Positions 3,234 through 33,438 of a stretch of DNA of 35,073 nt are shown piece by piece. The number at the start of each line of letters is the position of its first letter. The stretch's first letter is position 1. This DNA comes from Candidatus Stahliibacteriota bacterium (GTDB taxonomy: Bacteria > Hydrothermota > Tepidihabitantia > SM23-42), in assembly GCA_030609135.1 (NCBI GenBank), contig JAUWCU010000009.1, positions 1 through 35,073 on the forward strand, in the 5' to 3' direction. Position numbers and translations under genes: made by a program. The notes below the pieces were generated by a model. That model was not told where the DNA came from, did no database searches, and saw nothing but the letters and a program-made list of their open reading frames with translations.

Positions 3234-3344
3234 TATTAAGATGCTCATTTGTGTAATTGGGGTCAAATCCCCGTTATAACGAGATAACGAGGGCAGGCAG
3301 TGATAATAAAAAGATTACGCCGATGACAAAATAAAATCTTACCG

Positions 3345-4817: not shown

Positions 4818-4950
4818 ACAAACTGGCAACACAAACACTACGGATGTTCTTGCGGTTCTAAAATCATGGAATGGGGTCAAATCCCCGTTATAACGAGATA
4901 ACGAGGGCAGGCTAAACACTTTACATTAGGGGTTTTAAGTCATTTACTAT

Positions 4951-16559: not shown

Positions 16560-18250
16560 ATGACGAACACAGTAAAACTGGTTGCCCTTGTTAGCATTAT
16601 GCTAACTACGCTATGGGGGGGGTATACGGTTGATTATTCCCCTTCAGAGTTCTCTTTTTATAAAGAGAACGGCTTTGATTGAATAAAGGCAATAAATTTT
16701 GCCCTTATTGGTGAACCAGGCACACCCGAGTTGCCTGCAGTCTATCTTAACTACATTATTCCGCCTTATGCAAAAGTAGAATCTCTTATTGTATCTCAGT
16801 CTAATATTAATCAAATCTCTGGCTCTTATTTAATTTACCCTGCACAACCTCCTCATAAGCCTGGCGAGACTATTCCCTGGGTTGATCCTGATTCTCTAAT
16901 CTACAATTCTGACGAACTATTCCCTGGTGAATTTGTTAGGATTGTTAGCCAGGGAGTCATGGATGGTGCAAGAATTGTTACGATAGAAGTTCGTCCTCTT
17001 CAATATCGTCCCAAATCAAAAAGATTATTTCTTGTAAGAAATATCACCTTTGAATTTTCATTTGGTTCAAATACTATACCTGAACTACGTCCACAAATCA
17101 GAGGTAGATGTGAACAGGCAGTTTATGATGCAGCAATCAGAAATGTAGTTGTAAATGATTATGAGGTACCGTTGTATTATCAAACACCAACACTTGTCGA
17201 GGAAAACCAGATAGGAACACTTGCGCCAATACCAGGCGCCCCTGGAGTAATAATTACTCCATCTGAATTCTTTGACGCATTTCAGGGGTATGCCAACTGG
17301 ATGACCGACCAGGGCATAAGGACGATACTAATCACGCCTGAGTACATATATTCTGTTTTTCCACAAGGTCGTGATAATCCTGAAAAGATTCGACTTTACA
17401 TGCAATGGTGCTACAAGCATGCTGGTGGAACATATTTTATCCTGGGCGGTGACGATTACTTTGTACCGGTCCGATATTGTTACAGTCTCTACAGTGTTCC
17501 ACCAGAAGATTCAAACTTCAGCGTACCTTGTGACATGTATTTCTTAGATCTAACTGGTGAGTGGGACAAAAATAATAACCGGCTATGGGGCGAAATAGAT
17601 GACGACGAGGCTGACCGTTTTCCCGAAGTATATGTAGGGAGAGTTACGTCCTACTGTGTTCAGGAGGTCGATAATTGGGTAGATAAGGTACTGGGCTATG
17701 AAAAGTCTCCTAACCTTGTTGATTCAGTTGCCCTTTGGCTTTACAAAGATATGGCTATCGGTGACGCCCCCACCGTGTTCCCGGATTATTTCCAACATCT
17801 TTATGTAGAGATGATTAATGCAGAGCAAGCTGTTGAGTATTTGAGTCAGGGGTATGCATTCAATAATATTTATTGTCATGGAGTACGCGATACTTTTAGT
17901 GATTGCCCTGCTACGATTAAAGTCGCGGCATATTGGCCGTTTCAACCTTCGCCATCCTACGATGGACTGAACAATCTGGAGAATTTTAATAAATACATCT
18001 TTGTCTACTCGCTTGCATGCCATAATGGAGGTTATGATTCACACTGGATTGATCCTGGAACACAGGGTGAAATTGCACCTACTGACACTTGTATTGCCGA
18101 TGGTTTCATAGATACCTATAATAATTCAATTGGAGCCTGTGCATTTCTTGACTACACGAGGGCAACCAGACTTAGTTATAGCTACGATCTTGAGTATGAG
18201 TTTTATAATTGTTTCTTCTCTCCATATACAGGTCCTTATCCGTTTTTCCT
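16560..18250 (+). pseudogene. Gingipain-like cysteine peptidase (family C25), in-frame TGA near N terminus and 3' end cut by an element
   Basis: ATG 16560 with SD and hydrophobic leader; TGA at 16680-16682 in frame with GEPGTPELPAVYLNYIIPP...; YCHGVRD (His) and VYSLACHNGGYD (Cys) candidate catalytic motifs; reading frame enters TGGGGTCAAATCTCAACA at 18251. Confidence 0.82.
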
Positions 18251-18480
18251 TGGGGTCAAATCTCAACATTCAACATTCGTGGTTGATCTTATCTGCTGAT
18301 TACTATGGCTGCGCTTTTTGTTCTTTGCGAATGTTGAATGTTGACAGGGTGACCGAGAATTAGGAGTAGGGCGTTTACGCCCGTGAAAATATGTCGAAAT
18401 TTAATCACATTTAACGAGCCTAAAGGCTCTACTCCAAGAAATTTCGACATTCTCGGTCAGCCTGTTGAGATTTGACCCCA
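18251..18480. mobile_element. Non-autonomous element with 18-bp perfect TIR TGGGGTCAAATCTCAACA
   Basis: 18251-18268 and reverse complement 18463-18480; nested inverted repeats and GTAG-hairpin pair 18363-18435. Confidence 0.87.
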
Positions 18481-31774: not shown

Positions 31775-31856
31775 GATACCATGAGTAACGGTGTATCGGA
31801 GTAACCGAGTAACGGTGAAAATGCAAACACCTACCTAAGCGAATTGCGAATTGGGG

Positions 31857-32855
31857 TCAAATCTTTGCATTTTGCACACTACTTCTTAACTTTACTTCAG
31901 TTTTCTTGTATATCTCTCTCACTTTCGAACTCTTTTTCATTTTCTCTCTAAATCGTTTTCGCAAATGATGTACTGAAACATAATCTATATCACCTATTAG
32001 TTTTCCTATCTGTGCTTGGGTTATATCACTATATTTATATAATAGTTCCGCTACCATCCCTCTAATTTCACCATTAACCCCACGTCGCTGTATTATCCCC
32101 TTTTTGATCCCAAACTCCCTGATCAATATCCCTAACACCACCTCAGGCTCTAATGTTTTAATCATAATATCCCGATACGATGGTTGTTCACGTACTGACG
32201 CTCGTCTAATGTATTTCTTCGCCTTCATTACAAAATCATCGTCACCTAATATTATCCTGCTTTTTACTTTCTTAAACGGATTATCTGTGTCCTTCTTTAT
32301 GCCATCTAATACAAACTTCCGGTACTCACTTCGATCATTAACCATTGATAATATCAAACCGTAATCAACATTTTTAACCACCTTTTTCTCATCCAGATAA
32401 CCAGGCATACTGCTCCATTGATAATCCCTTACATACTGCCATCGCTCCCGGTAACCTAATTTTCTTAACTTCTTTACGCGCACACAATTCAAATGTAAAT
32501 AACGAGATACCTCTAATAAATAATTATCCGCATCTATTAAAAATGCCTTATATCTACCCTGATATAAATTCCCATTACGATGATGACGCCAATTAAACCA
32601 ACCAGTATACCGAATGTTAAAATGACGCATAAATTCTGAACAGTTTGCCTTTCTGGTCTGAATTAGTAGATGAAAATGATTGGTCATAAAAATATATGCA
32701 TGAAGTACAACTTGATAGGTCTCCAATGATTCTTCGAGCAGGGCAAGAAACTTGTGGCGATCCTTGTCATCCATATATATCTTCCTTCGTTCAATACCTC
32801 GACAGGTTATATGGTAAAAAGCATTTGGAAACTGAATCCGCAAAGGTCGTGCCAT
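31857..32855 (-). CDS. REP-associated tyrosine transposase (Y1/HUH, TnpA_REP-like) with C-terminal helix-turn-helix extension
   Basis: MARPLRIQFPNAFYHITCRGIERRKIYMDDKDRHKFLALL...FMTNHFHLLIQT (HUH)...SRYLHLNCVRV (Tyr); C-term DITQAQIGKLIGDIDYVSVHHLRKRFREKM is DnaA-HTH-like. Confidence 0.93.
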   Translation of the reverse strand: MARPLRIQFPNAFYHITCRGIERRKIYMDDKDRHKFLALLEESLETYQVVLHAYIFMTNHFHLLIQTRKANCSEFMRHFNIRYTGWFNWRHHRNGNLYQGRYKAFLIDADNYLLEVSRYLHLNCVRVKKLRKLGYRERWQYVRDYQWSSMPGYLDEKKVVKNVDYGLILSMVNDRSEYRKFVLDGIKKDTDNPFKKVKSRIILGDDDFVMKAKKYIRRASVREQPSYRDIMIKTLEPEVVLGILIREFGIKKGIIQRRGVNGEIRGMVAELLYKYSDITQAQIGKLIGDIDYVSVHHLRKRFREKMKKSSKVREIYKKTEVKLRSSVQNAKI

Positions 32856-32889
32856 TACACCATTATACTCATTTATGTTCCCATGTCAA
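32853..32889 (-). promoter_or_regulatory. RAYT promoter with start codon at about +1
   Basis: Minus strand: TTGACA-16 nt-TATAAT-6 nt-ATG. Confidence 0.7.
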
Positions 32890-33056
32890 CTGTGACGCAA
32901 AATGCAAAGATTTGACCCCATATCTTCACAAAGGGAAGAAGAGAGAAAAGGGGTTAGAGTTGGTAACTATTAACTAACCTCTTTGATATTTGAATATTCC
33001 GTACGATTGGTATTTGGTAGAGCGGATGAGTACTCTGTTCACTTAAACAATAAAAC

Positions 33057-33078
33057 GCGGAGCAAGCTCCGCCACTAC
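33057..33078 (-). repeat. Single GTAGTGG-foot hairpin
   Basis: Minus strand GTAGTG-GCGGAGCTTGCTCCGC. Confidence 0.75.
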
Positions 33079-33215: not shown

Positions 33216-33260
33216 GCGCCCGTGGCTCAATTGGATAGAGCAGCGGACTACGGATCCGAA
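33216..33260 (+). pseudogene. tRNA-Arg(ACG)-like 5' half, 3' half missing
   Basis: GCGCCCG-TG-GCTC-AATTGGATA-GAGC-A-GCGGA-CTACGGA-TCCGA then divergence; no T-arm or CGGGCGC acceptor 3' strand found downstream. Confidence 0.72.
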
Positions 33261-33438
33261 ACAACACATTTTGCATGCTCCCATGATTTCGACGGAAATA
33301 AGGCAAAGCAAAGAGGTGCAAGGCTTCGCACTATTCTGACCTTTACGAAATTTTCTGAACGATACCATATTTTCCGACAAAAAAAGACACAAAAAAAGCA
33401 CACTCGTGTTAGCCGGTGTGTTAAGATAGACTTCCATG

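Follow-up and report, generated by a model that had tools for sequence, protein, structure and literature searches.

The window analysed here is a 35,073-nucleotide stretch of a MAG (170 contigs, 2.56 Mb), the nearest named relatives of which are MAGs of Candidatus Stahlbacteria / WOR-3. It contains a perfect 24-bp inverted repeat, TGGGGTCAAATCTTTGCATTTTGC, whose arms at 31852–31875 (+) and 32897–32920 (−) match at 24/24 nt and are separated by 1021 nt. The ORF between the repeats (31857–32855, −) encodes a protein of 332 residues, P0001, with a Y1_Tnp match in Pfam (E 4.4e-13) and a match under the cut-off to NCBIfam REP_Tyr_transpos; the Y1/HUH domain is present in 60/60 homologues. A reading made from the sequence only had described such a gene between perfect repeats, and the description holds. 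It had also noted that the left repeat overlaps the stop region. Indeed, the TGA stop (31857–31859) is part of the left tip, and P0001 takes its last five codons from TIR sequence. The promoter, TTGACA-16-TATAAT, is leaderless by position, as had been proposed, because the −10 box ends 6 nt before the ATG. The stated distance of 19 bp between the right repeat and the promoter is corrected to 7 bp, counted from the −35 box. The element is laid out as follows.

31852–31864 (+): generic tip TGGGGTCAAATCT of the downstream (left) TIR, holding the TGA stop of the gene
31865–31876 (+): two putative address words, TTGCATT and TTGCA, with a 7-bp period, in the left TIR (sequence and period-7 test over 162 ends)
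31857–32855 (−): TIRYT gene, encoding the 332-residue Y1/HUH transposase
31869–32144 (−): predicted DnaA domain IV-like DNA-binding domain, residues 238–329 (PDB profile match to DnaA, E 1e-7, and Foldseek match to 1j1v)
31956–31985 (−): recognition helix, residues 291–300 (DYVSVHHLRK), the best word-predicting window, with residue 293 at the top of the tree-aware test
32493–32825 (−): Y1/HUH catalytic domain, residues 11–121, with invariant H60, H62, Y112 and Y119 (Pfam, alignment and fold match to TnpAREP 4er8)
32862–32867 (−): −10 box TATAAT
32884–32889 (−): −35 box TTGACA
32896–32907 (−): putative address words TTGCATT and TTGCG of the upstream (right) TIR
32908–32920 (−): generic tip of the upstream (right) TIR

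TIRs had been regarded as an anomaly among RAYTs. However, TIR-flanked Y1 genes were already named TIRYT/TIRtron by De Nocera 2013 (PMC3733652), and Quentin 2018 (PMC6006769) equates most TIRYTs with subclass 2.1 TnpA-Y1 and notes a DnaA_C/HTH domain. The window element is of this TIRYT/TIRtron kind, probably within subclass 2.1, and is not an ordinary RAYT. It shares with the kind a Y1/HUH gene between inverted repeats with the GGGGTCA motif, a C-terminal Bac_DnaA_C/HTH domain, and gene-less TIR families in the same genome. Within the literature searched, the term TIRYT occurs only in these two papers. The catalytic fold is also that of RAYT/TnpAREP proteins (E. coli type, 4er8), consistent with the REP_Tyr_transpos match below cut-off, but RAYTs have GTAG hairpins on both sides, whereas the window element has TIRs and an extra DnaA-like domain and is mobile as a unit. 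GTAG REP hairpins on both sides of the gene, which characterize the canonical RAYT/REPtron, are absent; one hairpin lies ~140 bp outside the right end. With the TnpA of IS200/IS605 (IS608, ISDra2) the element has in common the Y1/HUH catalytic domain and the absence of target duplication. It differs in its element-specific words, its DnaA-IV-like domain and its TIRs, which lack the imperfect subterminal hairpins found at both ends of IS200/IS605.

The ends were analysed in 81 non-redundant elements with tips on both sides (162 ends). The common plan is a tip, GGGGTCA[AG][AG][TC]CT, followed by two words, NNACANN-NNACA, at 7-bp spacing. Word positions 1–5 and 8–12 of the same end agree with an identity of 0.66, against 0.19–0.33 at other offsets. 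Agreement is 0.93 between the two ends of an element and 0.60 between different elements, and there are 53 distinct 12-mers. The window sequence GGGGTCAA fits the published GGGGWSAS TIR motif at 7/8 positions, and some relatives carry GGGGTCAG. In the genome of the window, the tips fall into word families CTACAT (15), GAATAG (7), CGACATT (6), TTACATT (5), CAACATT (4), TTGCATT (2) and TCACAAT (2); another 18 tips have a nested CAGG element at the word position and 25 belong to no class. An intact gene is present for five word families. The own word of P0001 is TTGCATTTTGCA, and TTGCATT occurs in the genome only at the two ends of the window gene.

The AlphaFold2 model of P0001 is confident (pLDDT 88.5). 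In Foldseek searches, the catalytic part matches TnpAREP 4er8 (E 6.5e-5), and the C-terminal part matches 1j1v, a structure of DnaA domain IV in complex with a DnaA box (TMt 0.85, 1.5 Å over 92 columns; E 0.03 in the whole-chain search). A profile built from 60 homologues matches DnaA chains with E 1e-7 to 2e-6. P0001 alone is below the Pfam threshold for Bac_DnaA_C, which 24 of the 60 homologues match. By profile and predicted structure, then, the C-terminal domain is a DnaA domain IV. The alignment places D291, Y292, V293, H297 and R265 at DnaA D433, H434, T435, H439 and R399, all of which are listed as base-contacting (PMC7561715). The likeness comprises the fold, the D-(H/Y)-x-x-V helix, the arginine at the R399 position and the ACA words. 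Unlike in DnaA, the domain is fused to a transposase, the words vary between elements, and Y292 replaces H434.

The co-variation of helix and words was tested in several ways, weaker outcomes included. Partial correlation within WOR-3 alone was ambiguous, with other columns leading the ranking, perhaps through one outlier; nearest-neighbour and tree tests were therefore added. In nearest-neighbour prediction over the 81 elements, with neighbours of >75% protein identity excluded, no 10-residue window of the protein does better than the one beginning at residue 291, in the recognition helix. Helix residues 293, 296, 297 and 300 predict the words with a score of 0.76 (all) and 0.82 (WOR-3), a level that 400 random or entropy-matched sets drawn from residues 1–226 all fail to reach; the whole C-terminal domain does slightly better (0.82 and 0.85). 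In the non-WOR-3 set, where the words hardly vary and the test has no power, the helix is not better than other regions. For the tree-aware test, the tree was built from residues 1–225 only, without the HTH. Residue 293 (DnaA T435) ranks 1/270 columns for sharing its branches of change with the second word base (p 3.7e-7, with 8 branches in common). At residue 297, M goes with C (7/7 versus 0/74) and K with G (14/15), by Fisher values that ignore ancestry; among the K members, L090 has a broken C-terminus and L119 an odd tip. The tree test gives no significance for residue 297, where K and M arose only a few times. Because the words and the gene travel together, shared ancestry accounts for part of the co-variation. 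The co-variation suggests that the DnaA-like domain may read an address word inside each end, which is how each copy could know its own DNA.

A leaderless sigma70 promoter with a −10 box ending 4–8 nt before the start codon precedes 61/81 genes (1.2% in shuffled sequence), and in 36/81 elements word 2 is itself the −35 TTGACA. This coincidence in many relatives suggests that binding at the end may also repress the gene. It also fits an alternative in which the words are promoter or accidental sequence carried with the gene, the tips alone are the transposition signal, and the HTH does something else (for example, dimerisation or binding of host DNA). Quentin 2018 (PMC6006769) leans the same way: as GGGGWSAS is unlike the DnaA box, end reading by the domain is doubted there. 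However, it is in the words that the end resembles the DnaA box, namely the ACA of its 3′ half (TTWTNCACA). The same words also occur at the downstream end, which needs no promoter, and the co-variation is seen with that end alone. In addition, residue 293 and the words change on the same branches of a tree built without the HTH. We therefore consider this alternative unlikely, and favour word reading by the DnaA-like domain.

The accessible text of the TIRYT and subclass 2.1 papers contains no 7-bp-spaced words, helix match or leaderless promoter on word 2, all of which are found here. We found no description of a word-based recognition scheme in the literature on TIRYT, figures and subscription papers aside, and nothing showing TIRYT movement or end finding in the accessible literature searched.

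A search of the 2.56-Mb genome for exact matches to the tip TGGGGTCAAATC gives 84, and 0 for the reversed control. Besides the window copy, the genome contains four full-length homologues (46, 55, 66 and 70% identity to it) and fragments, and the full-length copies each lie between convergent TGGGGTCAAATC tips ~1.06–1.08 kb apart. Homologues are present in 36/61 related genomes; in the named genome collection, 569/590 candidate stretches encode relatives, and the best 80 relatives kept are mostly from WOR-3 and Deltaproteobacteria. The TIRs could instead belong to a DDE transposase elsewhere that carries the Y1 gene along as cargo. DDE elements typically have TIRs and MITEs, and many tips have no Y1 gene. 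However, the TIRs flank Y1 genes at a near-fixed distance in WOR-3, Deltaproteobacteria and other phyla, the words track the P0001-type helix, and no DDE gene was seen between matching tips and words among the part of the tip pairs covered. Target duplications, moreover, are not commoner than in shuffled pairs. The cargo explanation is accordingly very improbable, and we retain the Y1/HUH protein as the probable transposase of these ends.

By comparison of copies, the element is mobile, having moved between loci and between genera. A copy in this genome (G000:C65) and one in the sister species (G001:C82) are 96% identical over 1070 bp; the identity stops at the tips and the flanks are unrelated. 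Among 44 element pairs at least 72% identical, the alignment stops no more than 4 bp from both tips in 23 and runs well past a tip in only 2. The window copy is 82.8% identical (nt) over 1070 bp, tip to tip, to a copy in another genus (G017). For rpoB, the reference gene in this comparison (panC has no match in G017), the same two genomes are 70.0% (nt) and 74.8% (aa) identical, so that horizontal transfer of the element between genera is probable. Short derivatives are 96–98% alike at several loci. G001 and G002 lack one copy (C169) at the orthologous site, and a 94-bp short element (C68) is absent in G003, while G001 has a short element with a different word at the same place. A comparison of filled and empty sites had been proposed; the window copy has no clean empty site, its left flank being kept in G001–G003 and its right side rearranged. 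Sites near other copies are messy, and most other intergenic sites between the sister genomes are remodelled. A domesticated RAYT that does not move, the usual description of RAYTs, and whose inverted repeats are fortuitous would fit paralogues only 46–70% identical to the window copy and full-length copies that are old within the genome, without an IS-like recent burst; the presence of one element at unrelated loci of sister species, with boundaries at the tips, the transfer between genera and the near-identical short derivatives leave this the least probable explanation of all. The sequence-only reading, which had proposed a TIR-bounded mobile unit, had named the lack of other copies and a repeat unique to this locus as evidence against it; we looked for this and found the opposite.

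No single-end hairpin is stable (10 ends folded, z −1.8 to +1.6), and whole short elements fold as long hairpins. In a palindromic-target test, the mutual complementarity of the left and right flanks is slightly above chance in autonomous elements and not in short ones. A one-sided, IS200-like target motif was rejected: both ends have the same purine-rich, then A-rich outer flank.

Taken together, it is quite probable, on comparative sequence grounds, that the locus is a complete TIR-bounded, mobile TIRYT/TIRtron with a word-reading DnaA-IV-like domain, HUH single-strand movement and autorepression. The DnaA-like domain would bind the two 7-bp-spaced words of each end in double-stranded form, and would thereby select its own ends only. 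The HUH domain would then nick one strand at the GGGGTCA tip through a tyrosine, putatively Y112 from its place in the motif, and a single-strand route without target duplication would move the unit or its short derivatives. Binding to the upstream words would silence the leaderless promoter next to or overlapping them. We lean slightly towards a wider proposal, that an HUH transposase family found in several phyla takes its address from a fused DnaA domain IV, with a code from residues 293/296/297 to NNACA words, orthogonal paralogues each with their own short derivatives, and word 2 doubling as a −35 autorepression box. If this is true, exchanges of a few residues or words could change the specificity of such a transposase. 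TIRYTs were described >10 years ago, and the 2018 survey left DNA recognition by the DnaA-like domain open. The co-variation of words and helix makes end recognition directly testable with purified domains, and word reading would explain the coexistence of several diverged transposases and short derivatives in one genome.

Two further elements lie elsewhere in the window.

18251–18480: related non-autonomous element with the same tips and the word CAACATT, in the family of the C89 fragment, not of the window gene
18345–18464: element of the CAGG...CCTG type carrying inverted GTAG hairpins, nested within the 18251 element in its right TIR

The element at 18251–18480 had been linked to the window unit by its ends. 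The shared tip is confirmed; the pairing fails, because the tip is generic and the inner word differs (CAACATT there, TTGCATT here). The C25-peptidase ORF at 16731–18299 runs into this element, which supplies its last codons and stop, and may be truncated by the insertion. The nested element is flanked by a 4-bp duplication, TTGA (18341–18344 and 18465–18468). Its type, CAGG[N]TGACCGAGAAT...CCTG with two inverted GTAG hairpins, has 76 end matches in the genome and is inserted at the same TIR point (TGGGGTCAAATCTNNA^) in several word families, often with a 4-bp TNNA duplication (also L017, L020, L046, L047, L050 and L056). In G001, two of the short elements (C24 and C167a) lack it. It looks like a DDE-type MITE parasitising TIRYT ends. 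GTAG-tagged hairpins of several types (e.g. 1028–1049 and 33057–33078) number 7 in the 35-kb window versus 0.35 in shuffles. The hairpin at 33057–33078, reported earlier beside the unit, is real; nothing ties it to the unit. Since GTAG hairpins recur in the separate CAGG...CCTG element at the loci examined, they belong to another system.

Several minor observations concern other sequences. At 33216–33403, the 5′ half of a tRNA-Arg-like sequence is followed by ~130 nt, and this stretch is 98% conserved in G001 (C15:11179–11366) at a non-syntenic place; a 3′ half of the tRNA-like sequence was not found, no tRNA was called and the Rfam tRNA score is weak. A repeat sharing the tip (3258–3297, 4872–4911 and L022) continues as TGGGGTCAAATCCCC[AG]TTATA...GATAACGAGGGCAGGC and has no NNACA words. 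One intergenic site (L028 1332–1425 compared with L222 and L214) is a recurrent insertion spot, with a GAATAG-word short element in G000, a CGACATT-word one in G001 and none in G003. A distant RAYT (L010, C13) is flanked by four copies of a GCGTCAGC-TT-GCTGACGC palindrome in conserved surroundings. A second tip family follows the same plan as the first: a Y1 gene lies between TGGGGACGGTGCTTGACATTTTGACA ends, consisting of a tip and repeated TTGACA words (L021, C45, 1334–2230 plus both flanks; L096).
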